Positions 1 through 14,967 of a stretch of DNA of 16,265 bases are shown piece after piece (the first letter of the stretch is position 1; every line of letters begins with the position of its first letter). A program made the position numbers and the translations under genes. The DNA is from Thalassiosira profunda (lineage: Eukaryota; Bacillariophyta; Thalassiosirophyceae; Thalassiosirales; Thalassiosiraceae). The stretch is from the NCBI GenBank assembly GCA_036939355.1, contig JALLAP010000294.1, positions 1 to 16,265 of the forward strand, in the 5' to 3' direction. The notes under the pieces are model-generated. The model saw only the letters and a list, made by a program, of their open reading frames with translations, was not told where the DNA came from and made no database searches.

Positions 1-250
1 CAATGATGGATAGCGCTGCAGTGCAAGGGCTGGAGGAGGGCTCCGCCGCTCGCCCGGCTCTGGGACAACGAGCTTGCTGCGGCGCAGGGATGAGGGAGGT
101 GAAAAAAGGAAAAAGTAAAAAGTGGAAAAGTCACCCAGCGACGATGCACGATAGCGGCCACGCACACCACCATCACCACTTCCTCCTCGCGCCCTCCCCC
201 TCCTCCCGGCCGCTCCAGACTCCTGACGCACCGTTGCATTGCATTGCAGC
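1..250. other. 5' flank of the formiminotransferase-like gene
   Basis: No gene is supported here. The open frames are compositionally biased (runs of CACCATCACCACT-type and CCTCC-type sequence) and encode nothing recognisable. The stretch probably holds the promoter and 5' UTR of the gene starting at 251. A TTGCATTGCATT motif at 234-245 ends five bases before the ATG and recurs upstream of the nuclease gene. Confidence 0.4.
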
Positions 251-1375
251 ATGTTGCCCCCCGCAGCCCTCGTGGCCTGCAATATCTACGTCACGGCGGC
301 GGCGTCGCAGTCCTCGACACTGCTCAGTTTGCTTGGGCGCGCCCAAAATCGATGCCGTGAGATCCGCAAAGATGACGCCGCTCACAACAGATGCACATCG
401 AAGGGTGATTCGCCAGAAAAGGAAACGATGGCGCCCGTGGCCATGATACATGCCTACGCGGACGTGCCCTACGATCGATCGTCGTTTCATCTCGCCGGAA
501 CGCCCGAATGCGTGTCAGATGTGGCAACTGGGCTGTTATGCAATGCTCTGAAAGAGATTGAGATGGATTGCAATAATGGAGGTGGGAGCAGCGAACCAGG
601 AGGAGGCAGCGCTCGGCATCCATTTGTGGGTTTGGTGGATCATGTATCGGTCATGCCACTGTCTCATCTAACCAAGGAATGTGATGCAGCCGCAAATGCA
701 GCCCGACAAATTGGAGAGCGGGTATCAGAAACGAAGTTGGTCAACGTCCATTACTACGGGAGGGCATGCCCCAACAACACACCACTGGCAACTGTGAGAC
801 GAGAGAGAACTTCCTTCTTTAATTCTGGGTGTGCTATTGGAGAGAATGGCAAAATTCTTGAGACGAGCAGGGCGCCCAAAGGAGATACAACCATCGGTGC
901 ACCGGGCACCTTCGTAGAAAACTTCAACGTTCGTTTGACGTCTAACGTCAGCTTTGACCAAGCAAAGACACTGACGCAATTTCTGAGAGGGAGAAACATT
1001 GATAAAGGATATGGAATTGCGGGAGTCGAAGCGCTGACATTGCCCTACGTGAGAAGTCCGTCCGAGGGAGGTAAGGTGTACGAGGTGGCATGCAACTTGA
1101 CGAAACCCAAAGAAGGAGGCGCGGACGAGATTCGGACGCAGTTGGGGAAGTGGATTGATACGCAAACGCAGCTGCTATCCGAGACGAGTGAGGGCAGTGA
1201 ATCACACGCCTTTGGCTACGACTATTTTGTGGAAGATGCATACCCCGTCGGAACCACGGAAGAGCAGTGCAGGAAGGTCCTTTCCGGAAAGAGGTTCGAC
1301 CATACTGACGCAGCTGCTTGGGATGAGTACGACAACGCGGTGCTCCAGAAGTTCCAGCGACTTTTGCAACACTAA
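251..1375 (+). CDS. Formiminotransferase N-terminal-subdomain-like protein, 374 aa, single exon
   Basis: The protein resembles the plant-type stand-alone formiminotransferase subdomain, which is related to the N-terminal half of FTCD (formimino transfer from formiminoglutamate to tetrahydrofolate). The opening segment LVACNIYVTAAAS matches the family's first strand. IHAYADVPYDRSSFHLAG (about 66-83) matches the second conserved block, and HPFVGLVDHVSVMPL (123-137) carries His123 at the position of the catalytic histidine of FTCD. A second subdomain with NFNVRLTSNV and VEVACNL-like YEVACNLTKP follows. No cyclodeaminase domain is present. The ATG at 251 is preferred because it starts right at the first strand; the frame remains open four codons upstream, but without an ATG. 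A Gly/Ser-rich loop lies at about 109-121. The actual substrate of the stand-alone family is uncertain. Cytosolic location is assumed, since no clear targeting peptide is visible. Confidence 0.85.
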   Translation: MLPPAALVACNIYVTAAASQSSTLLSLLGRAQNRCREIRKDDAAHNRCTSKGDSPEKETMAPVAMIHAYADVPYDRSSFHLAGTPECVSDVATGLLCNALKEIEMDCNNGGGSSEPGGGSARHPFVGLVDHVSVMPLSHLTKECDAAANAARQIGERVSETKLVNVHYYGRACPNNTPLATVRRERTSFFNSGCAIGENGKILETSRAPKGDTTIGAPGTFVENFNVRLTSNVSFDQAKTLTQFLRGRNIDKGYGIAGVEALTLPYVRSPSEGGKVYEVACNLTKPKEGGADEIRTQLGKWIDTQTQLLSETSEGSESHAFGYDYFVEDAYPVGTTEEQCRKVLSGKRFDHTDAAAWDEYDNAVLQKFQRLLQH

Positions 1376-2296: not shown

Positions 2297-3430
2297 TCAG
2301 ACTCGACACCACCTCCATGGGACACACGGCCAAGCTACGCGCTCCGCGGTCATCGGGTAACTGACAAATTGCTGCATCTTCTTCTTGGCATCCTCGTCGA
2401 GGGAGGAGTAGTCGATCGTGCCGTCGGACTTGAGGCGAAGCTCGTTGAGGTTCTCGAGCCACAACTTGTCGCCGGCTGCGTCCTTCGATTGCTCCGCCCA
2501 TTGCTGCCTCAGCTCGGCCATATCAACGGCGGCAGTCGCCGGCCTCCCCCTGCATCCGGACTCGTGGGCAACCGCCTTGTCGTAGGTACCAAAAACGACC
2601 TCGCGGCAGATGTCGCACCGCCATACATTTGGCATCGCCTTGGCGGCGGGGGCGGGTCCATTCGACTCGGTCCTCGTCTTCGCTTTGGACGCTTTTTCAC
2701 GAATGACGTGCTGGAGGTATTCGTCATACAACCGGTTTCTGGGGCAGCCATTCTTCTTCATGATTGTGGCCAATCTGGAACTGACGAGAGTCGACGACCC
2801 TTCTAGAATAGCAGGGTCCTTCGCAATCTCAGCGACTGTTTTCGAAGCCATGCATTTCTCTCTTTCCGAGAGGTCTCGACTCCGAGTCGCAGCGGCCCTC
2901 GCGGCCACCTCGCTCCCCAAACGGCAATGACGTTTGATCAAAGGCAACAGTTTCGCCATATTGGGGTTTGCTCCGATGTCATCGATTTCACCCTGGCTCA
3001 AATGTGTCGAGCGTTTCAAGTAGCTGAAAGTCGTATTTGCCACCTGCTGCATCACATCGTCGAAGTTCTTTCCGCGGCTCTTGGCGAAGGTGGTCACAGC
3101 GCCCGTGAGCTCGGACTGCTGCTCGCCATTGAGCATTCGGCTGGCGAGTTTGCTCAGCATGCGACCGTACTCTCCCCATTGCTCTTCATTGTCGACCTGC
3201 GCTTTCCGGCACCTCTCCAGCTCCTCCATCACAACAGAGACGTGCTTTCCATTGCTCTCGGCGAGGCTGGTCGCGGCGGCCACGAACTCGTCTGACTGTC
3301 GCTCGAGATTGAGCCGCATCCGCTTGGCAAGGTTTTGCAACTCGCTCATGTAGTTAGATCGATCTCTTTTGCGACTCTTGCCCACCAAAGACAGCAGCGT
3401 GAAATCACAGGCCAAGTTTTGGCAGAATTG
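2297..3430 (-). CDS. XPG-like nuclease paralogue, C-terminal part only, with C2HC zinc finger (5' truncated at assembly gap)
   Basis: From the first complete codon next to the N at 3432, the frame encodes QFCQNLACDFTLLSLVGKS, which is also present in the nuclease encoded at 9171-12281. Two helical repeats of that protein's type follow (starting near 3331 and 3148). After these the sequences part. This copy continues with a region of unknown function, a C-x2-C-x13-H-x3-C finger (WRCDIC...VAHESGC, about 2552-2617) and a short charged tail with SDGTIDYSSLDEDAKKK. The whole nuclease half is missing because homology stops exactly at the N; beyond it an in-frame TAG appears in unrelated sequence. 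No ATG matches a real N-terminus, so the true start lies in missing sequence. It may be an intact gene cut by the assembly or a genuine fragment. The finger suggests nucleic-acid or protein binding, which is inferred. Confidence 0.7.
   Translation of the reverse strand, partial: QFCQNLACDFTLLSLVGKSRKRDRSNYMSELQNLAKRMRLNLERQSDEFVAAATSLAESNGKHVSVVMEELERCRKAQVDNEEQWGEYGRMLSKLASRMLNGEQQSELTGAVTTFAKSRGKNFDDVMQQVANTTFSYLKRSTHLSQGEIDDIGANPNMAKLLPLIKRHCRLGSEVAARAAATRSRDLSEREKCMASKTVAEIAKDPAILEGSSTLVSSRLATIMKKNGCPRNRLYDEYLQHVIREKASKAKTRTESNGPAPAAKAMPNVWRCDICREVVFGTYDKAVAHESGCRGRPATAAVDMAELRQQWAEQSKDAAGDKLWLENLNELRLKSDGTIDYSSLDEDAKKKMQQFVSYPMTAERVAWPCVPWRWCRV
2552..2617 (-). other. C2HC zinc-finger segment of the paralogue
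   Basis: CDIC followed 13 residues later by HESGC gives a C-x2-C-x13-H-x3-C spacing, compatible with one zinc ion. The complete relative at 9171-12281 has nothing equivalent and carries a linker-histone-like domain at its C-terminus instead. Confidence 0.6.
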
Positions 3431-3431
3431 G
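3311..3431 (-). repeat. Dispersed direct repeat copy 1 (121 bp, shared with 10182-10302)
   Basis: By eye this stretch differs from 10182-10302 at only three positions, and identity runs right up to the N at 3432. Similarity falls off leftward (3241-3310 has many more mismatches). It is coding in both copies, for the conserved block and the start of repeat 1. Confidence 0.85.
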
Positions 3432-3432
3432 N
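3432..3432. other. Assembly join (single N)
   Basis: The left side ends in the middle of a nuclease-paralogue coding block. The right side shows no similarity to the corresponding nuclease sequence (10303 onward). The single N therefore most likely stands for a gap of unknown size or a false join. Confidence 0.75.
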
Positions 3433-3433
3433 A

Positions 3434-3541
3434 AAGCTAGCCAAGGAGTTTTTGAAGATCGAGGGATACCTCGTTAATGGAGAAGGTGGCGGCATAGGAT
3501 CTGGCGGTGGCGGTTCTGCCCATCAGATGCCGCTCAGCTGA
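3434..3541 (+). CDS. 3' end of an unidentified + strand gene (5' truncated at gap)
   Basis: Right of the N, the + frame reads KLAKEFLKIEGYLVNGE, then a Gly/Ser-rich stretch and ends HQMPLS-stop at 3541. Codon choice and composition look like a natural protein C-terminus, and it would converge with the LRR gene 153 bases away, as the other gene pairs here do. The segment is only 35 residues, so coding status is tentative and the product is unknown. Confidence 0.35.
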   Translation, partial: KLAKEFLKIEGYLVNGEGGGIGSGGGGSAHQMPLS

Positions 3542-3694
3542 AAAGAAACCTATTTGCTTCTGAATAGCAGCAGCAAATCAATTGTGGCACGAAACACATT
3601 GAGGCGAACTGTACTATTAGTGATTTTGGGGTTGACGAAACAGATGGGTCTGTTGATAGCTAAAAACAGCAGCCCAATCATTGCAGGCGGACAC

Positions 3695-5434
3695 CTACGC
3701 TCTCTTTCGCTTCTTCATCCCTGGGTTCTGACTAAAGAACAACTCTGGCAGCCGGGCGAGAAGCCGGTACGTGATTGCAAAGCCAGCGTCGTCTCTCACG
3801 TACCCAAGCCAAGCCAGCACTCGCGGCAAAAGCTTGAACTCCATGTTGCAGAGCAACTGGATGTTGTCCCCGTCCGGATGCACCACATGCGTTCGAAGAA
3901 TCTTGGTGCGCGCAACTGCAACTTTGTCGCTGTCTCCGTTCAGCTGCAATAGATCCTTGAGTCTAGAAGGACCGGCTTCAAGGTAACCGGAAAGCCCGAG
4001 ACTTTCCAGGATATGATTAGACGCATGAGTGCGAGATGGGCTCGAGGTTTCGCAAAGAAGGCCACAGAATATGCCCCAGTTGTGGATGGGATTTGCAGCG
4101 AGGTCCAGAATTGAAAGGCAAGTATTGTGAGCCAACGCCGAGCAAAGCATCGTGGCACCCACGTCGTTCACTCCAACTGCTTCGAGGAAAAGCTCTTTTA
4201 ATGCACACCCAGATGACCGCAAACAGTCAGAGATCACTCGTATTTCAGTTTCGCCCATGTCTCCCGTCCAGCTGAGCGATAGCGAATTCAGTGTGACGTT
4301 GCTAGTTGCAAACTCGTGCACAAAGTCACGGGGAATTCGATTGCCTCCAATGTCAATGGTCGTTGGAATGGAGGCGTAGCGCCAAAACTTAAACTCTCGC
4401 CAAGCTCCGGCGGTGATTGCATCGTTGTTCGCCAGATTCAGATCGAGGAGAGATGTGTTCTCGGCCAATGCCATCTCCAAGAGAATGAAGTTCGAGTCGC
4501 TGAGTTGACAACTGTTCAGATCAAGGCTCTCCAACGCACAGGAGCTGTGACTCAAGTATTTTGACAAAGACCTGCATCCCAGCGCGCCCAGCTCCAGCCC
4601 CTCCAAGCACAGCGTCCTCAACTTTCCATTGTTTGCGACCATCTTGAGAAAGAATGAGATCGCTTCATCGTCCATCGACGTACGTCCGAGATCGAGCGTA
4701 TGAACATTGGACGTATGCGCACTGAGAACTCTAGCCAATGCATGCATCGCACCCCAACCAACCTTTGTACCGGTCAAGGAGATATTCTTCAGATATCTTT
4801 GTTCCGCCAAAGCTTCCAGCACCCGCTGCTTCGCGAGTGGTGGGCACTCGGTGTCGACAAGGCCTATCACCTCTAACGAATTGCTCTTACACCGCAGATG
4901 CTTAAGCTGCGCCATATTACCAAAATCGATTGTGCAGTGCACAAACTCGATGCGACGAAGATTGCCGTTGTGCGAGAACAACGGAGCCAGCGATTGCAAT
5001 GCCAATTCTGTCAACTCTGTATCAAAGGTGCAAGCGAAGATGGTCAAACCCTCGAGCGAACGATTGCATGACAATGCATGGCAGAAATGCACGAGGTTGC
5101 TGCTTCTACTGAAGCTTTCCGGATCCTCTCCGAAGCCATGGGACATCATTCCCCTGCCGAAGCCCCGTATCGTCATTTCTTTCAAGACAGTGTTCGACCC
5201 GAAAGCGTTCCCGCACTTCACCCAATCGACAGTGTTGGCATCATCACCAAAAAAACCTTCGTCATTCCACCAACTTGCCGTTGCATGTTTTAGGTTGCCG
5301 TTGCGCCTGATCCATTGCATAGAGTGTTCATTCAACGAACTGGTCTCGTTATCGGAAGCATCGTCATTGCTAGTCGACGAGTCGCCGTCGTACTCGGGCC
5401 GCCGGGCATCGGCTAACTCGTTGGGGCCTTCCAT
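3695..5434 (-). CDS. Leucine-rich-repeat protein (ribonuclease-inhibitor-like), 579 aa
   Basis: The start is the ATG at 5434, followed by a short acidic, Ser/Asp-rich leader (DGDSSTSNDDASDNETSS, about 17-34). From about residue 80 to 450 there are repeated LxxLxLxxxxL-type units of about 28 residues, for example LKNISLTGTKVGWGAMHAL, VHTLDLGRTSMDDEAI, LRTLCLEGLELGALG, LESLDLNSCQLSDSN, LLDLNLANNDA, LKELFLEAVGVNDVG and LSILDLAANPIHNWG. This spacing is the RI/NLR type of LRR, which folds as a horseshoe for protein-protein interaction. The C-terminus (LLPRVLAWLGYVRDD...LLARLPELFFS...KKRKRA) is helical with a basic tail and resembles tails of other diatom LRR proteins. No signal peptide, membrane segment, NACHT or kinase domain is visible. 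Likely intracellular; partner unknown. It is divergent from the MYND gene across 430 bases. Confidence 0.85.
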   Translation of the reverse strand: MEGPNELADARRPEYDGDSSTSNDDASDNETSSLNEHSMQWIRRNGNLKHATASWWNDEGFFGDDANTVDWVKCGNAFGSNTVLKEMTIRGFGRGMMSHGFGEDPESFSRSSNLVHFCHALSCNRSLEGLTIFACTFDTELTELALQSLAPLFSHNGNLRRIEFVHCTIDFGNMAQLKHLRCKSNSLEVIGLVDTECPPLAKQRVLEALAEQRYLKNISLTGTKVGWGAMHALARVLSAHTSNVHTLDLGRTSMDDEAISFFLKMVANNGKLRTLCLEGLELGALGCRSLSKYLSHSSCALESLDLNSCQLSDSNFILLEMALAENTSLLDLNLANNDAITAGAWREFKFWRYASIPTTIDIGGNRIPRDFVHEFATSNVTLNSLSLSWTGDMGETEIRVISDCLRSSGCALKELFLEAVGVNDVGATMLCSALAHNTCLSILDLAANPIHNWGIFCGLLCETSSPSRTHASNHILESLGLSGYLEAGPSRLKDLLQLNGDSDKVAVARTKILRTHVVHPDGDNIQLLCNMEFKLLPRVLAWLGYVRDDAGFAITYRLLARLPELFFSQNPGMKKRKRA

Positions 5435-5864: not shown

Positions 5865-6746
5865 ATGAGCACCAACGAAAGCTGTGCCGCGTGCGGCAAG
5901 GGCAGCGACGACCTCAAGACGTGCAAAGCGTGCAAGATGGTGAAGTATTGCGGAAGGGCGTGCCAAGCTGCCGACCGACGACGGCACAGAAAGCTGTGCA
6001 AGCAACAAGCGTCTCAGCTCTTTGAGAACGCCTTGTTCGCCCCTCCTCAGACTCCGGAGTGCCCAATCTGCTTCCTCCCGTTCCCTCTTGGTTCAGGAAT
6101 GGCGACCTTTCAGCAGTGTTGCGGTACCGCCGTGTGTAACGGATGCATCTATGCGGTTGCCATCAAAACCAGGCCCCCTCCTTGTCCGTTTTGCCGCGCC
6201 CCGGCTTCGTGTTCAGGCGCTGAAGTCGTCCAACGTTTGGAGCAGCGAATGGAGGTCGGTGATGCTGAAGCAATGAACGAGATTGCTTGCAAATACCTCG
6301 AAGGAGACAGCGGATTGCCACAGGATACGAAAAAAGCAATGGAGCTCTTCGAGAGAGCTGCAACCCTCGGCAGTATGGAATCGCACTTCAATTTGGCAAA
6401 TGTGTACTACCACGGAATGCACTCCTACGAAAAGGATGCCACCAAAGCTAGGCATCACTACCAAATCGCAGCAATTGGAGGTAACGTCAAAGCCAGGCAC
6501 AACCTTGGCTGCCTTGAATGCAGCGTAGGCAATGCGGACAGAGGCATGAGGCGCATGATGCTTTCTGCCAAAGCGGGAGACGACACGTCTCTCAATGCCA
6601 TTGGCAGCGCGTTTCGCAGTGCCCTCTTGAGCAAAGAGGAGTTTGAGGGCTGCCTGCGGGCGCACAAGAATTCGCAAGACGACACGAAAAGTGAGAACCG
6701 GGAATTGGCAGCGAAGCACCTCGACGATTTGATTCAAGGTCGCTGA
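5865..6746 (+). CDS. MYND + RING-like + Sel1-repeat protein, 293 aa
   Basis: The N-terminal MYND finger is complete: C7, C10, C20, C23, C29, C33, H41, C45, with typical spacing. A RING-like module follows at 66-110 (CPIC...QCCG...CNGC...CPFCR), in a variant form that lacks the usual central histidine. Residues about 132-241 form three Sel1/TPR-like repeats, such as AMELFERAATLGSMESHFNLANVYYHG and ARHHYQIAAIGGNVKARHNLG. MYND fingers bind proline-rich peptides and Sel1 repeats are scaffolds, so an adaptor role, perhaps in ubiquitin signalling, is an inference. The same architecture is greatly expanded in Thalassiosira genomes. The start is the first ATG before the finger. The stop lies 22 bases from that of the convergent plastid-protein gene. 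Confidence 0.9.
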   Translation: MSTNESCAACGKGSDDLKTCKACKMVKYCGRACQAADRRRHRKLCKQQASQLFENALFAPPQTPECPICFLPFPLGSGMATFQQCCGTAVCNGCIYAVAIKTRPPPCPFCRAPASCSGAEVVQRLEQRMEVGDAEAMNEIACKYLEGDSGLPQDTKKAMELFERAATLGSMESHFNLANVYYHGMHSYEKDATKARHHYQIAAIGGNVKARHNLGCLECSVGNADRGMRRMMLSAKAGDDTSLNAIGSAFRSALLSKEEFEGCLRAHKNSQDDTKSENRELAAKHLDDLIQGR

Positions 6747-6768: not shown

Positions 6769-8814
6769 CTACTGCCTAGCCACCAATAGAGCCATAATCT
6801 TCTCCATTTCGTCGCTCAGCTTCTGATCCTGGCGTGCTTGATAGTCCAATAGCCTCGATGCAATATCATCGGGCAGACTGTCGACGGACCTCTCCAACCG
6901 GTCGAGACGCACCTCGACCTCTATGATTCGAGACCCAATTCGTTCTTCTTCAGTTTGTCCGGTGGAGGACGCAGCGACGTCGTTGCCATTGGTCAATGCT
7001 CCCAAGTAGTCTGCAACCGCCTCTGCCGAGGTTGGCGCCGGCATGTATCCCTCGCTCAAAGCATCCAAATAGCTAGTGAACGCCGCACCCGCCTTGCCCT
7101 TCTTCGCCGGAGAGGCGTTGGACCCCAGCGAATCGAGGTATCCAACGATGGCCTTTACCTCTCCATCCGTTGCTACTGCTCCAGTGCTCGCCAACGAATC
7201 CAGATATCCCTTGATAGACTCAGAACAACCCTCAGTGATTTGTCCAGGCTCGCAGAATTCTAGCTCATCCTCTGAAGAGATGGCAGATGTGCTTTCATCC
7301 CGCCTTCGATCACTGGTGTATTCCGGAGTTGTAGGTTGAGACTGCGAAATAGTCTCTTTGGCTCTGGTTGGCTGCACACCATCAAATGCAGTCGACGCTT
7401 TCGTTTCCTCGTAAAGTTGTTCCGCCTCCTCTCCCGAACTCCCAGAGTCAGAGCCTTTGAATCTGCGCATGATATTCTCCTCGACCCAAGGGACGGTGCT
7501 TAGCGCCAGTCCGATCCGTAGCGGCACGGCTAGACGCGCAACATTAACAAATGCAAATGCCTCGAGCCCAACCTGCTTCACTTCTTCCGCGTCCGACAAG
7601 TTGGGCCAATGCCCAGTGACTTTCTGATAGCTCACGACGCAGACGGGGATCGAGACTCCCCAGAAAGCCGCCTCCCACAAGGCGTAGCTGACCGCCCCTG
7701 CCGGCCCCGCATCCTTCACTTTCTGGAGGAGGTTCTTCGACTCGTCCGTGCCCTTTTCGTTGCCCGCGTCTTTGCTTTTGCTGTCGTCGTTTTGATTGAG
7801 GAAGATCCCTAGCGCCGAGAATAGCGATACTCCAATGATAACAAGAGGAACCAAGCCGTAGTCTTCAACGTCCAAATTCATACTCGGTAGAGAGAGTGGA
7901 TTGGTTGTTGTCGTTGGCTGTGATTTGACCAGCTCGGATGCGGTGGCAGCGGGTGTTGTTGTGTCCTTTGTCGGTGCTGTTGTGGCTGATGCTTCCTTCT
8001 TCGCGGCATCCGACGATGCAGCGGGCGCCACATTTTTCTCCTTAGCGGCAGCGGCAGGAGGGGCCTCATTTACTCCCGATGCTGCAGATTGCTGTGCGTC
8101 TCCAGAACTAGTTGCTTGTGCAGTTTCACCTGCTGGAGCAGGAGGTTTTGCATCCGCAGCTTTGTTGGGAGAGCTTCCTCCTTCGATGTTCACTTTCATC
8201 GGCCGAGCCCCACGACCACCAAGATCTGTGAATCCGTTGAGCTTTATCGGAGGCGCGGAATCCTCGCTGGCACTCGCTGCAGAATCTTGCACGCTGGCTT
8301 CCCCGTTGATTGGCTCTGCCCGCTCCGACGCAATGCCGAAATCCGTAAACCTACGACGCGTCGGTGTTGGCGGCGGCGTCTCTGCAGTCTCTGCCGTTGC
8401 ATCGGTTGATCCTCCAGCTGTTTGCATCTTCAACATGTAATACTTGTTTGCAAGTGGGGTGTCCGCCGACGGAGTGAAAGTCGACATATCAACGGCCTTG
8501 TCTGACGATGCCACCACTTTGCCCGTTGTGGGCGAGCTGGCGTCGCTTTTGGCGCCAGTACTGGTACCATCGCCGCCCGTCTTGAGTTCCAGCGGCGCTG
8601 CAAACTTCTCGAGCCTGTCGTCCGGGGGCGCATCCCCCTCGCCTGCCGACGTCACGACGTTAACTCTTTGGCCGCGCCGCTCAAACAGCCGTCTCCTCGC
8701 ATGATAGGGCGACGATGGTCGCAAGAGGCTTCCCTGCGGCTGGAAGGCATGCACCACATTTGCAACATGTGGATGACTCAGCGCCACCGCGAGCGCAAGT
8801 GCCGCCACTCTCAT
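6769..8814 (-). CDS. Plastid-targeted membrane protein with FAM210/DUF1279-like region, YLDSL motif repeats and coiled-coil tail, 681 aa
   Basis: Residues 1-23 form a signal peptide ending VVHA, followed by FQPQ. This is the Phe-led ASAFAP-type site of complex-plastid import in diatoms, with a basic Ser/Arg transit-like stretch behind it. Residues 60-305 are disordered, rich in Ala/Pro/Ser/Thr, with a twice-occurring FTDFG/FTDLG motif (156-160, 195-199). A helix at about 319-340 and two more hydrophobic segments at 375-398 and 418-446 (EAAFWGVSIPVCVVSY; VARLAVPLRIGLAL) resemble the DUF1279/FAM210 membrane fold; this family call is moderate. After an acidic linker come four YLDSL-like motifs (537, 559, 582, 603) and a C-terminal helix, probably a coiled coil (621-681). 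Likely in a plastid membrane; function unknown. The start at 8814 is fixed by the signal peptide. Confidence 0.8.
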   Translation of the reverse strand: MRVAALALAVALSHPHVANVVHAFQPQGSLLRPSSPYHARRRLFERRGQRVNVVTSAGEGDAPPDDRLEKFAAPLELKTGGDGTSTGAKSDASSPTTGKVVASSDKAVDMSTFTPSADTPLANKYYMLKMQTAGGSTDATAETAETPPPTPTRRRFTDFGIASERAEPINGEASVQDSAASASEDSAPPIKLNGFTDLGGRGARPMKVNIEGGSSPNKAADAKPPAPAGETAQATSSGDAQQSAASGVNEAPPAAAAKEKNVAPAASSDAAKKEASATTAPTKDTTTPAATASELVKSQPTTTTNPLSLPSMNLDVEDYGLVPLVIIGVSLFSALGIFLNQNDDSKSKDAGNEKGTDESKNLLQKVKDAGPAGAVSYALWEAAFWGVSIPVCVVSYQKVTGHWPNLSDAEEVKQVGLEAFAFVNVARLAVPLRIGLALSTVPWVEENIMRRFKGSDSGSSGEEAEQLYEETKASTAFDGVQPTRAKETISQSQPTTPEYTSDRRRDESTSAISSEDELEFCEPGQITEGCSESIKGYLDSLASTGAVATDGEVKAIVGYLDSLGSNASPAKKGKAGAAFTSYLDALSEGYMPAPTSAEAVADYLGALTNGNDVAASSTGQTEEERIGSRIIEVEVRLDRLERSVDSLPDDIASRLLDYQARQDQKLSDEMEKIMALLVARQ
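6985..7212 (-). repeat. Array of four YLDSL-type short motifs
   Basis: GYLDSLAS, GYLDSLGS, SYLDALSE and DYLGALTN recur with spacings of 22, 23 and 21 residues, separated by small and polar residues. Only the motif cores are conserved, which is the pattern of a multivalent short-linear-motif array and not of a folded repeat. Confidence 0.75.
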
Positions 8815-9170: not shown

Positions 9171-12100
9171 TCAACCGACGCTCTGGCTCTGGCTGCCCGC
9201 GAACGAGTACGTCGACTTGGTCTGCATGAGCTCGCCATCTCTAACCATCTTTCGCAGCATCGGATTGAATGCGCCGCCATCGAACTGCTCGCCCACTGCT
9301 GTTCGTACGTGTTTCTTCAAAGTTGGAGCAGTACCGGCAAGCTTCTCTCGGCTCTCGATTGCAGCAATGATCAATGGTCTGTACACACCGGCACGTTCCT
9401 CCGCGGCGCGCTGCTTCTGGGCCTCCTTCTCAGCCCACTCCGCCGCGGCGCGCTGCTTCTGGGCCTTTCTGTACGCCCGTTGCTGTTCGATCAGCGACAA
9501 CACAACATCAACTTTTGGGTATTCTTCGACGGTGTCAATTGTGTCGTCGTCCGCAAGTTTCAACCAGCTGTAAACCACATTTGCCGCGTCCTGCATCACC
9601 TCGTCGACGTCCTTTTCAAAGCGCTCAGCGAGACTGGCTACGGCGTTCACGAACCCAACCGTCTGATGCTGGCCGTCGTACATTTGGCTGGCGAGCGTGC
9701 TCAGCGTGCCACCGTATTCTCCAAAGCGTTCCTGTCTTTTCCGGCAGTTCTCCATCTGCTCCAGCACGACCGCATCCTCCTTGTCGTAGCACTGGCCGAA
9801 CGCAGCAACCTCGCTTGCGAGGGCCAACGACATGGGTCCATCTGCAGGAAGCTTGCTGGCGAGAGTTTGCAGCGCGCCGCCGTGCTCTCCGTTGCTGTCC
9901 TGTGCTTTCCGGCAGTTCTCCATCTGCACCAGCACGACCTCATCCTCCTTGTCGAAGCGCTGACCGAACGCAGCAACCTCGCTTGCGAGGGCCGGGGACA
10001 TCGGTCGGTCCGAAGGTAGCTTGCTGGCCAGAGTTTGCAGCGTGCCAATACGCTCACCGTTGTCAGCCTGCGCTCTCCGGCATCTCTGAAGCTCCTCAAT
10101 CACGACAGCGACTTGCTTTCCATTGCTCTCGGCGAGGCTTGTCGCGGCGGCCAAGAACTCGTTGGTCTGCTGTTTGACATCGAGCCGCATCCGCTTGGCA
10201 AGGTTTTGCAACTCGCTGCTGTAGTTAGAGCGATCTCTTTTGCGACTCTTGCCCACCAAAGACAGCAGCGTGAAATCACAGGCCAAGTTTTGGCAGAATT
10301 GGCGCAGGACGGGTGCCTGCTGACTGTTGCAGATCCCCATCGTGCCAGCTTCGAGCCCAGCCACGAAATTGGCGATGGCCGAGATACCGAAGCAGTGCCT
10401 TTTGAGGCCGAACGGGTCTTGGACACTTCCAAAGTAGGCTCTGTTCAGCACCCGTCCGGTCCCGCCTCCCATCATGACAAAGCATACCCTTGTGGCCAAC
10501 AGTTCACCAAGATAGGCGCCAGCGTCCCCTTGGAAGATTGTCGAATACTGGAGGAAGCGGTGTACCAGAATGCCGGATGTATCCAGGCTTGCATGCTCGC
10601 CATAGCGAACTATTTCGCTGGGTCGGAAGTGTCTGCCACCTATGACCGCAGCCTCCTCCCTGGCCGTGTCGGTGCCAGCGCCAGCGTCAGCCTCGTCGAT
10701 ATAAACGGACCTCATCACAGTCGGATTTCTGCTCGTATCCACAAAGTACGCGGTATCCTCGTTCCTGAGTGGAACGTCTCGCTCGTCTGGCATTGCCTTC
10801 AAGGCGTACAATGAGAAGCCGTCGCCATGGTCCTTCTGCAACTGCTGAATAGCAAGTACCGTCCACTGAATAACGTGTTTCTCATCGACAGGCGGGCGAC
10901 CTTCTTCCTCATTGATCCGTCTATAAGCCTCTCTATTCGATTCAAACACTCTCTCCTTCTTCTCCCAGTCGACGACCACAGGATCAAGACGATTGGCATC
11001 TCTGCGTCGATCGATGCTCCGCTCAAGCTCCTTCAGCGCATCGCTGAACATGCCAGACAGCGCTCCGCGCCGCCTTTCACTCATGTGATTGAGCTGTCTC
11101 GAAAGAGACTCACTCTCTCTGCTGATTATTCGTGCATCATCCTCAAGCTGCCCGGCATCGTCGCGTGCCGCGACGACTTCGATCCAGGGCCGCGTGCTGG
11201 GGTGGAGGAAGCCATGAGCGATAGCTTTGCTAATCTGGACGTCGCGAACGGGATGCCCAACCAATTTGGCAACTGCCTCCTCCCTTTCAGGTGCTGGCTG
11301 GTGGAGGTATTCGATTGTTTCTGTCGCCGCGTCGAACGCCCTTTGGTGGTTGAATGTAGCCCAACCTCCATTCCACTGTTGCTGAAAGTCCGTGGGCACG
11401 ACGGCGCCTCTGACCAACTCTGCTGCTGCAATGAGACGCTCAATATTGCACGGGTCGCTCTCGTCCCAGCTCTCTCGGACGAGTTTGGGCGCCTTCTTCC
11501 AACCAATTTTGAAGATGCCAGCGCTGAAGTCGCATCCAACCACCAAGCAGACGGCAATGAGCTGGCCTCTCGAGAGGCCAAAGAAGATGTGACGTTCGTC
11601 GCCGACCGCTTCTGCAATGACGTACATCGAGCCTTTGAGGACGCCATGCCCATCGGTTTTGATAATCATCACCACAGGACAGCCATATGGTATCAGATCC
11701 GAGTCATTGCAGACGACGAGGTCCACCGACAGGGCGAGCTTTGCAAGCTGGGCATCGGCTTCGTTGGGTGCTTGGATGAAATCCCAGGAGCCATCTGACA
11801 TAGCTTCGATGATTGCATAGGTGACAGCGTCAATGGATGCGTCGACAGCTCCAGCAAACAACTTATGGAGTTCTTTCCCATCAACATCTATGCCGTCCTC
11901 CTCGCGTTTCTTTTGGTGAGCGATGGCATCGCTGAAACTTTTCATTCGATCCGTGCGGCGGCGTTCGCCCTCGGAAGATTTGGACATCAATGCCTCTCCA
12001 TCCAGAACAAACGTTGCTTTCCCCACAAGGCTTGCTATTATGGTCGCCCATTTGACAATGTAGTCGACCAACGGCTGCCAAAGCTCCAGTGGCACGGGCT

Positions 12101-12281
12101 GGCCGGGCTGGGTATCATTTTGGAGGCGAGCTATTGTTTCCACATCAAGGCAGCGTTTTCCTCTATGCCGGAGGACAGCGAGATCGTACGCGATGCTCTT
12201 GTCGCGATATTTTTCGTCCTCCAGGGATTCGATTGGGGCCGATTTGGCAATGGTCCCAAGAAATCCTTTTGCAGCGCCCAT
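9171..12281 (-). CDS. XPG/FEN1-family nuclease with helical repeats and C-terminal linker-histone-like domain, 1036 aa
   Basis: The N-terminus MGAAKGFLGTIAK aligns with the MG-x-x-G-L start of FEN1/EXO1 enzymes, which fixes the ATG at 12281. The frame stays open six codons upstream, but only with GTG. The acidic metal-binding residues are all present: D33 (IAYDLA), D94 (VLDGEA), E174 and D176 (NEADAQLAKL), D193 and D195 (NDSDLIPYGC), and D251 (GCDFSAG). An active structure-specific 5' nuclease is therefore likely. Residues about 300-690 are unrecognised. Four helical repeats of 56-57 residues begin at 694, 751, 807 and 863. An Ala/Lys/Glu/Gln helix with a 14-residue duplication follows. Residues about 966-1036 (VYRPLIIAAIE...FNPMLRKMVRDGELMQTKSTYSF) resemble the histone H1/H5 globular winged helix. 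No intron is visible. It is probably nuclear, acting on DNA or chromatin. Confidence 0.85.
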   Translation of the reverse strand: MGAAKGFLGTIAKSAPIESLEDEKYRDKSIAYDLAVLRHRGKRCLDVETIARLQNDTQPGQPVPLELWQPLVDYIVKWATIIASLVGKATFVLDGEALMSKSSEGERRRTDRMKSFSDAIAHQKKREEDGIDVDGKELHKLFAGAVDASIDAVTYAIIEAMSDGSWDFIQAPNEADAQLAKLALSVDLVVCNDSDLIPYGCPVVMIIKTDGHGVLKGSMYVIAEAVGDERHIFFGLSRGQLIAVCLVVGCDFSAGIFKIGWKKAPKLVRESWDESDPCNIERLIAAAELVRGAVVPTDFQQQWNGGWATFNHQRAFDAATETIEYLHQPAPEREEAVAKLVGHPVRDVQISKAIAHGFLHPSTRPWIEVVAARDDAGQLEDDARIISRESESLSRQLNHMSERRRGALSGMFSDALKELERSIDRRRDANRLDPVVVDWEKKERVFESNREAYRRINEEEGRPPVDEKHVIQWTVLAIQQLQKDHGDGFSLYALKAMPDERDVPLRNEDTAYFVDTSRNPTVMRSVYIDEADAGAGTDTAREEAAVIGGRHFRPSEIVRYGEHASLDTSGILVHRFLQYSTIFQGDAGAYLGELLATRVCFVMMGGGTGRVLNRAYFGSVQDPFGLKRHCFGISAIANFVAGLEAGTMGICNSQQAPVLRQFCQNLACDFTLLSLVGKSRKRDRSNYSSELQNLAKRMRLDVKQQTNEFLAAATSLAESNGKQVAVVIEELQRCRRAQADNGERIGTLQTLASKLPSDRPMSPALASEVAAFGQRFDKEDEVVLVQMENCRKAQDSNGEHGGALQTLASKLPADGPMSLALASEVAAFGQCYDKEDAVVLEQMENCRKRQERFGEYGGTLSTLASQMYDGQHQTVGFVNAVASLAERFEKDVDEVMQDAANVVYSWLKLADDDTIDTVEEYPKVDVVLSLIEQQRAYRKAQKQRAAAEWAEKEAQKQRAAEERAGVYRPLIIAAIESREKLAGTAPTLKKHVRTAVGEQFDGGAFNPMLRKMVRDGELMQTKSTYSFAGSQSQSVG
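9174..9386 (-). other. Linker-histone H1/H5 (H15)-like domain at the nuclease C-terminus
   Basis: The segment starts with VYRPLIIAAIESREKLAG and ends with FNPMLRKMVRDGELMQTKS and TYSF. The helix-helix-helix-wing order, the L-K-x-x-V-x-x-G-x-L-x-Q-x-K signature and the length of about 70 residues agree with the H1/H5 globular domain. The assignment is by eye from signature residues. Confidence 0.65.
9401..9466 (-). repeat. 42-bp tandem duplication in the nuclease coding region
   Basis: The 24 bases at 9401-9424 recur identically at 9443-9466, a period of 42 bases (14 codons). The encoded AQKQRAA-type helix is duplicated just before the linker-histone-like domain. Confidence 0.8.
9540..10202 (-). 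repeat. Four tandem 168-171-bp coding repeats
   Basis: Leucine codons opening each unit (LAKRM, LASKL, LASKL, LASQM) end at 10202, 10031, 9863 and 9695, giving periods of 171, 168 and 168 bases. The two middle units are the closest, sharing MS-x-ALASEVAAFGQ, DKED and QMENCRK. The outer two are diverged. Predicted structure is amphipathic helix pairs. Confidence 0.85.
10182..10302 (-). repeat. Dispersed direct repeat copy 2 (121 bp, shared with 3311-3431)
   Basis: This is the partner of the copy at 3311-3431, in the same orientation at an offset of 6871 bases, with three mismatches. It lies inside the intact nuclease gene, where the coding sequence continues upstream without interruption. Confidence 0.85.
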
Positions 12282-13376: not shown

Positions 13377-14967
13377 ATGGCGCTTATCGGGATCGCCGCA
13401 CGGCAAGCCTCGCGGGCAGTGCCCCGGGTGGCCTCCAGGTCAGTTTGTCGCGGGGCGTCGCGTTGGTTGGATCAGCGGCGGCGGAGGAAAGGTCGACCCG
13501 AGCCCCGGGAGGAAGTGCCGATGAAAAATTTGGGCGGCCTCGTAGCTGCTGGCCAGGGGAGGCTGCTCCTCTGCCTTGTGGCGTCCGAGCAGCCCGTCGC
13601 AACCCCAGGGGGGCGGTAACTTTTGGGCGTGCAGCCCGGCCGAGTAGTGAGGGGCTGGCTTCGGATGAGCGGTGGCGTTCACCTCATAATATTTTGGGGA
13701 GAGGGCCTGTTCATCTCCATCCTCTTCGATAGAGGGGGGAAGAGGAGCGGCAGGCAGCAGACACTCTTTGCATCTCTGCCAGTAGCTCGCCCTCCAGGCC
13801 CATCATATCTACTCGGATGCTCTGAGCGATATTTGTGCATATGTTGTTGACTTGGTTGGGCCCTCCGTCCTCATCTGCTCTTATCTGGATACTCTCTGCC
13901 TTACCTTCGTCTCACCTACANGACTTGGTTGGGCCCTCCGTCCTCATCTGCTCTTATCTGGATACTCTCTGCCTTACCTTCGTCTCACCTACAAATTGTT
14001 CCTTTATCTCTTGAATGCAGGGCCGTTATTGCCCGTGGCATGGCTACGGAAAAGCAGAGTGAGTTGCTTCACATCCCCTTGTGAAGATGTGCCAGCTGTT
14101 GTCCCCGGTCAGCTAACCCGCTTCACCCCACCTACAGTTTGGAACCAAATCCAATCTACCAAAAACATCCAGAAGATCACCTCTTCGATGAAGATGGTTT
14201 CCGCCGCCAAGCTCAAGGGTGACGAGGCGCGCCGCATGACCGCCATCGCCTTCAACACGTGGGCCGAGGCCCTCAACGGCGCGCCCAAGATGGTGGAGGA
14301 CGCCACCTTCGAGGAGCTCCCCCAGAAGGTCCTCATCGTTCCCGTCTCCTCCGACAAGGGATTGTGCGGCGGAGTCAACTCCTTCATCACCAAGGGCGTC
14401 AAATCTTGCGTCAAGGCCCTCGCCGACCAGGGCAAGGAGGCCGACATCGCCGTCATCGGGGACAAGGGGCGCGGCCAGCTCCGCCGCGTCTACGGCGACG
14501 AGATCAAGCTCAGCTTGACCGAGCTCGAATCGCCCGGGAACTTCACCCTCGCGGGGGCCATCGCCAGCGAGCTCATCGCCGCCGGGGCCGCCGACTACGA
14601 CGCCGTCGTCATCATGTTCAACGCCTTCCAGAACGCGGCGACGTACCACCAAATGTACAAGGTCGTGAAGCCGTTTTCGGGGGAGGGCGACGAGGAGCCG
14701 CTGCTGGCGTACGAGTTCGAGCCGGATACGAAGTCGGAGGTGCTGGTGGACCTGCAGGAGTACCTGCTCACGTCGGAGATTTACCACTCGCTGATGGACG
14801 GGGCCGCGGCCGAGCAGGGGTCGCGGATGACGGCCATGGAGAACGCGTCGAAGAATGCCGGGGAGATGATCGAGTCGCTGACCCTCCAATATAACCGTGC
14901 CCGTCAGGCCCGGATTACCACCGAGCTTATCGAGATTATTTCGGGAGCGTCTGCCCTTGAGGATTAA
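13377..14967 (+). CDS. ATP5F1C: Mitochondrial F1Fo-ATP synthase gamma subunit, three exons (13377-13438, 14021-14058, 14138-14967), 309 aa
   Basis: Gamma is the rotor shaft of F1 and couples proton flow to ATP synthesis in the mitochondrial matrix. The exons join to 930 bases, exactly 310 codons with the TAA. Exon 1 starts at the first ATG and encodes MALIGIAARQASRAVPRVAS, a basic amphipathic mitochondrial presequence. Exon 2 adds AVIARGMATEKQ. Exon 3 begins within the Ile codon of IWNQIQSTKNIQKITSSMK. Family hallmarks are SMKMVSAAKLKG near the N-terminus, SSDKGLCGGVNSF in the middle and the C-terminal NASKNAGEMIESL and ELIEIISGASALED. The absence of a signal peptide and of the redox-regulatory cysteine insert of plastid gamma supports the mitochondrial form. 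All intron borders are GT-AG. Intron 1 contains an assembly gap that does not touch the coding sequence. Confidence 0.95.
13439..14020 (+). other. Intron 1 of the ATP synthase gamma gene (apparent length 582 nt)
   Basis: The donor is CCAG|GTCAGT and the acceptor TGCAG|GG, splitting an Arg codon in phase 2. Open frames inside are not needed by the family alignment. The length is inflated by a 72-base sequence present on both sides of the N at 13921, so the real intron is probably about 509 bases. Confidence 0.85.
13849..13993. repeat. 72-bp direct repeat flanking an N: probable unmerged contig overlap
   Basis: 13849-13920 and 13922-13993 appear identical base for base, with the single N at 13921 exactly between them. 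This is what results when two contigs with overlapping ends are placed side by side. A real tandem duplication is less likely, because both copies end precisely at the N. Confidence 0.85.
14059..14137 (+). other. Intron 2 of the ATP synthase gamma gene (79 nt)
   Basis: The donor is GTGAGT at 14059 and the acceptor is CCTACAG ending at 14137. Removing it restores the Ile-Trp-Asn-Gln reading expected for the family and keeps the frame. Confidence 0.9.

Follow-up and report, generated by a model that had tools for sequence, protein, structure and literature searches.

A predicted EXO1-like nuclease that shares one reading frame with a linker-histone-type globular domain in Thalassiosira profunda

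The window analysed here is the whole of a 16,265-base contig (JALLAP010000294.1, here C293) of the Thalassiosira profunda assembly GCA_036939355.1, which spans 21.8 Mb in 1,366 contigs (C-numbers denote its contigs). One gene in this window encodes a predicted, divergent nuclease of the Rad2/XPG family that ends in a domain of the linker-histone globular (GH1) type, an arrangement of domains that we rate as new within a known nuclease family, on the evidence of one assembly. A sequence-only reading of the same DNA had proposed that both parts lie in one frame without giving a strand, and the analysis bears this out on the minus strand. We take the genome to be eukaryotic because it has genes for DPC2, MYND and linker-histone proteins.

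The gene runs on the minus strand from an ATG at 12281 to a TGA at 9173-9171 and encodes 1,036 aa with no intron required. On base composition alone, the chance of a stop-free run of this length is about 1e-17, and when the gene is divided into 14 successive segments of 74 codons, a codon-usage score trained on other genes places this frame first in 13 of them, including the one that holds the GH1 domain; in the remaining segment (residues 519-592) this frame and the opposite strand score almost equally (0.00 vs 0.01). The translation contains no X. Read on the plus strand in its own register, the interval 9171..12281 has internal stops, and a gene there was rejected on that account; other plus-strand frames were only listed. 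Two further proteins were used in the alignments cited below: P0002, an EXO1-like transcript protein (MMETSP), and L044, an archaeal FEN1 that was the single match of the prokaryote scan. The layout of the gene is as follows.

9171..12281, minus strand: whole gene, a single open frame of 1,036 aa (frame and codon usage)
11166..12281, minus strand: residues 1-372, predicted Rad2/XPG-type nuclease core, EXO1-like (29% identity over 370 columns to P0002; best PDB phmmer match EXO1, E 5.9e-12)
11529..11783, minus strand: residues 167-251, XPG_I region with E174, D176, D193, D195 and D251 (PF00867, E 2.7e-11)
11466..11531, minus strand: residues 251-272, putative helix-two-turn-helix region (DFSAGIFKIGWKKAPKLVRESW; alignment with EXO1, P0002 and L044), a label drawn from alignment to EXO1-type proteins with no motif search behind it
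10194..11165, minus strand: residues 373-696, central region with no Pfam match at cut-off; the part from residue 624 on recurs in diverged form at another place in the window
9522..10193, minus strand: residues 697-920, four 56-residue repeats, with units set by eye (related stretches in C87, C94 and C68)
9384..9506, minus strand: residues 926-966, linker rich in Lys, Arg, Glu and Ala, with an isoelectric point of 9.8 (composition)
9198..9383, minus strand: residues 967-1028, GH1 (linker-histone globular) domain (Pfam, own-genome copies, and profiles compared with the PDB)

Assignment of the N-terminal core to the Rad2/XPG family is carried by XPG_I, which matches the whole protein well above its cut-off (PF00867, 44.2 bits, E 2.7e-11, cut-off 24.9) and reaches 49.2 bits for this gene in a genome-wide scan. 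The seven acidic metal ligands that the sequence-only reading had named (D33, D94, E174, D176, D193, D195 and D251) are all present; together with K101 and R108 they align with P0002 and L044, with D176 replaced by E in the archaeal FEN1. The profile check suggested for residues 1-300 gave XPG_I at E 4.9e-12, whereas XPG_N stayed sub-threshold at 14.6 bits vs a cut-off of 22; despite this weak match, M1, D33 and D94 align with P0002 and archaeal FEN1. That the nuclease is active is inferred.

Within the family, kinship to EXO1 rather than FEN1 is favoured by sequence comparison but not proved. A phmmer search of the PDB placed EXO1 first at 47.8 bits, followed by flap endonuclease 1rxv (32.3 bits), with other FEN1 chains at no more than 19.8 bits, XPG chains at no more than 17.3 and GEN1 at 9.2 (E 2.5). 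P0002, which itself scores 241 bits to EXO1 vs 83 to FEN1, covers 98% of residues 1-330 (E 5.7e-18, 29% identity). In an eight-row tree the window protein groups with EXO1 proteins (support 93/93, and 94/98 at the inner fork, both short of the level that the tool marks with a star). Several results weigh against this placement or against the core assignment more broadly. Besides the sub-threshold XPG_N match, the best NCBIfam match is to an archaeal FEN1 model and not to one of EXO1, at 52.5 bits and thus far below the cut-off of 352, and the window protein sits on a long branch (1.85) in the eight-row tree. Approximately unbiased tests did not reject rival placements with FEN1 or with C1024/C38 (p 0.0575 and 0.0587), and it is because of these values that the EXO1 kinship stays favoured and unproved.

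The genome holds nine XPG_I places, eight of them over the cut-off. C1081 is EXO1-like (E 2e-19, with EXO1 in all five chains listed), a 78-aa exon piece in C243 has Rad2/XPG as its nearest match (E 9.6e-15), and both the sequence of C362 and its place in the tree beside archaeal FEN1 mark it as FEN1. Since FEN1-, EXO1- and XPG-like genes are thus present elsewhere in the genome, the window gene is best read as an extra, fast-evolving paralogue.

At the other end of the protein, homology to the linker-histone globular family becomes apparent through relatives of the domain in the same genome, which are 78% (C1111), 58% (C160) and 57% (C1060) identical to it. The C160 copy (C160:9466-9669) matches the window domain at E 5.1e-15 and PF00538 at 23.9 bits, above the cut-off, and its protein carries two GH1-type stretches (E 2.2e-17). 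A profile built from five own-genome copies found histone H1 (1yqa) as its best PDB match (E 2.4e-5) and also H1.0 (6hq1, E 8.9e-4); at E<=0.01 it returned 11 chains, ten of them H1 and one a cytochrome. With nine copies the best match was again H1 (E 3.7e-6), and H1 or H5 filled the first 10 of 28 rows; eight of these nine copies match PF00538 singly at E<=1. On these results we regard the homology to GH1 as established.

Taken singly, the window domain tells less, and the following results count against its assignment. PF00538 scores 17.3 bits on the C-terminal 77 aa alone (E 0.0055), below the cut-off of 22.4; at E<=10 it does not appear among the matches of the whole protein, and scanning the genome with PF00538 did not bring up the window place at E<=1. 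Because the scan control gave a sub-cut-off signal in one of 14 control genomes (E. coli), a sub-cut-off PF00538 match alone proves nothing. In the proposed check of the C-terminus against the linker-histone family, significance comes through relatives and multi-copy profiles and not from the single sequence. Structure prediction, proposed for both ends, gave weak models. For the full length, AlphaFold returned a poor model (four alignment rows, mean predicted local distance difference test score, pLDDT, of 44.5), for which the first three Foldseek matches were nevertheless FEN1 (E 0.0018 to 0.076, root-mean-square deviation >10). For the last 85 residues it returned a weak model with three helices and no beta wing (mean pLDDT 62.7), to which Foldseek matched no chain. 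These predictions are too weak to confirm or refute either fold.

GH1-type domains were also seen in other settings in this genome. Two loci, L006 (C160) and L018 (C218), combine them with a C2H2-like stretch in unusual architectures, the C218 protein also having a PDZ match just under the cut-off. L015 (C73:20994-21167) is a GH1 domain (48.8 bits) within the first half of a frame of 245 aa, the remainder of which we take to resemble an FKBP-type isomerase. At L005 (C1060), an HMG-box frame overlaps a GH1 copy that lies in another frame with one TGA, possibly a single gene with an intron or a frame change.

Relatives of the fusion itself were sought in several collections, and the outcome of these searches also weighs against our main reading of the gene. 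A whole-protein search of a 5.8-billion protein set found no fusion relative in 7,998 scored candidates; it scored only candidates sharing most words and missed P0002, which was found with residues 1-330, so that its reach is limited. A search of the same set with the C-terminus found none in 315 candidates, its range being limited to lengths between about 570 and 1,810 aa. In scans of viral contigs, nothing matched the whole protein, the nuclease pair or the set of five GH1 copies, leaving a giant-virus origin unsupported. In the literature, no fusion of a Rad2/XPG nuclease with a linker histone turned up by title or abstract start, in a coverage outside which most subscription journals lie; the statement of the sequence-only reading that no 5' nuclease with a linker-histone fold is known to have been described agrees with these searches.

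We hold with moderate confidence that the product of the gene is a divergent 5' nuclease of EXO1 type, additional to others in the genome, in which GH1 acts as a second DNA-holding site that tethers the enzyme to duplex, linker or branched DNA. In this role GH1 would hold DNA independently of its sequence. Close to a lesion or branch point, it would engage DNA that is duplex, linker or crossed, and the N-terminal core would thread and cut the 5' strand. The helical-looking repeats might serve as a spacer or as a protein-binding surface, and the tether could increase the enzyme's processivity on chromatin or its concentration there, much like the chromodomain of GEN1. A scan of the window protein for PIP-like and other short motifs yielded nothing that is relied on here. 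Nucleosomes and H1 are held to limit DNA-resecting nucleases. A bolder proposal, which we advance only tentatively, is that a nuclease with a built-in linker-histone fold resects or cuts chromatin DNA by gripping linker DNA, in a lineage where a GH1 cassette has been freely shuffled among chromatin and repair proteins.

A different account, possible though on balance unlikely, is that of young or decaying local domain shuffling, in which the frame is real and a repeat-GH1 cassette has become joined to an EXO1 paralogue with no settled function. It draws on a second element in the window:

2297..3544, minus strand: truncated related copy, from residue 624 on, with an in-frame TAG, no nuclease core and no GH1 match; its tail has a C2H2-like Cys/His stretch (by eye)

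This copy, with its stop, lies 6.9 kb from the gene, and 251 nt of it (3181-3431) are 89% identical to 10052-10302. Repeat-like stretches occur in C87, C94 and C68, in proteins with other parts (the C68 protein has a sub-threshold Myb match), and C2H2-like Cys/His stretches, so labelled by eye, are found in proteins of C94, C68, C160 and C218. Within the window protein, the repeat finder detected only the two middle 56-residue repeats, which are 83% identical in DNA (168 nt). GH1, repeats and Cys/His stretches look like shuffled modules in this lineage. The recurrence of GH1 and repeats in other architectures, the position of an extra paralogue on a long branch beside other EXO1-, FEN1- and XPG-like genes, and the failure of the protein-set searches to find an orthologue all speak for such shuffling.

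Selection was gauged by pairwise ratios of nonsynonymous to synonymous substitution (dN/dS), which cover GH1, the repeats and the partial copy and say nothing on the nuclease core. The GH1 domain gave 0.29 against C160 (bootstrap 0.14-0.56) and 0.48 against C1111 (0.22-1.05), the latter interval including 1, which counts against the tethered-nuclease reading; the repeats gave 0.59 against C87 (0.40-0.82), a value that favours shuffling, and comparison with the partial copy in the window gave 0.44 (0.21-0.91). These values fit constrained yet fast-moving proteins. A product of shuffling with no settled function sits poorly with a diverged frame that keeps all named catalytic residues, has no stop in 1,036 codons and shows a coding signal in 13 of 14 segments, and with the two GH1 comparisons, in which dN/dS stays below 1 although one interval extends to 1.05.

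The model put forward in the sequence-only reading was stricter, placing GH1 at the nucleosome dyad or linker as in H1 and the nuclease at entry/exit DNA, and we consider it improbable. It has in its favour the GH1 homology and the basic residues kept at 52, 73 and 85. Across nine basic positions of H1.0/GH5, six are K or R in the window domain (42, 52, 55, 73, 74 and 85), the match at position 42 hinging on gap placement, and three are lost (K40, R47 and K69); the six kept positions favour our main reading, and the three lost ones detract both from it and from the stricter model; positions 25, 94 and 97, also named in PMC9635857, fall outside this comparison. Linker histones have a long basic C-terminal tail, called indispensable for correct GH1 placement in the portion of PMC9635857 available to us, whereas the window domain is followed by only 8 residues, none of them K or R. 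Membership among true H1 proteins was rejected for want of this lysine-rich tail. The available portion of the same source also describes GH1 in non-H1 proteins, the plant GH1-Myb and GH1-HMGA, and calls its linker function there uncertain. Targeting to nucleosome entry/exit DNA may occur, but this is a narrower claim than tethering, and one that loses likelihood with the missing tail and the basic residues that are not kept.

Still less probable, and in our view very unlikely, is the view that the C-terminus belongs to some other winged-helix family, or serves contacts between proteins, and resembles linker histones only superficially. The sub-cut-off single-sequence match, with SelB-wing_2 as the second match, would be compatible with it, as would the weak C-terminal model and the weak matches of some copies to other families (ANAPC2 at E 0.0045 in one of nine, DUF5817_CT in three of nine). 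Against it stand the histones, which are best in both profiles (all but one of 11 chains at E<=0.01 with five copies, and the top 10 of 28 rows with nine), and the PF00538 matches of eight of nine copies at E<=1. Least credible of all is an artefact in which misassembly or a missed frame change fused two genes: the assembly is fragmented (1,366 contigs) and at another place in the window a 72-nt stretch is duplicated on either side of a single unread position, but the translation has no X, 13 of 14 segments carry the coding signal all the way from the nuclease to GH1, and the 168-nt repeats are only 83% identical.

The remaining genes of the window include the following.

239-1375, plus strand: formiminotransferase N-domain protein
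3695-5434, minus strand: leucine-rich-repeat-like protein (sub-threshold)
5865-6746, plus strand: MYND and Sel1-repeat protein
6769-8814, minus strand: match to PF25195, diatom pyrenoid component 2 (DPC2), E 1.6e-30

Just before an ATP synthase gamma gene, at 13849-13993, a perfect 72-nt direct repeat flanks one X-translating position and has the look of a join made in assembly. Searching plasmids with the ATP synthase gene gave no match. Judged by its genes, the DPC2 match makes a photosynthetic stramenopile the probable source; a silicic-acid transporter was not found in the genome (six frames, exon by exon), which taken by itself speaks weakly against a diatom.

Compared with known systems, the window protein shares with EXO1 a core over residues 1-372, the catalytic acids, and H39-R40-G41 where EXO1 (5uzv) has HKG. 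It differs in its low identity (29% to P0002) and in the added repeats, charged linker and GH1, and the genome has a separate EXO1-like gene in C1081. With linker histones H1 and H5 it shares a C-terminus of the same globular-domain family, and it differs from them in having neither their tripartite make-up nor a lysine-rich C-terminal tail. GH1-Myb and GH1-HMGA proteins are alike in carrying GH1 within a non-H1 protein beside another functional part; their partners are Myb or AT-hook, with no nuclease named in the available portion of the source (PMC9635857). GEN1 and Yen1 combine a Rad2/XPG core with a chromatin-type domain as an additional DNA contact, according to the part of PMC5039027 at hand, but theirs is a chromodomain and not GH1, and the window core scores 9.2 bits to GEN1 vs 47.8 to EXO1. 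The GEN1 chromodomain is the one precedent found for a chromatin-type domain on such a nuclease, and with a nuclease-GH1 fusion one could ask, in a case supplied by nature, if a fold that binds chromatin can help a 5' nuclease on packaged DNA.

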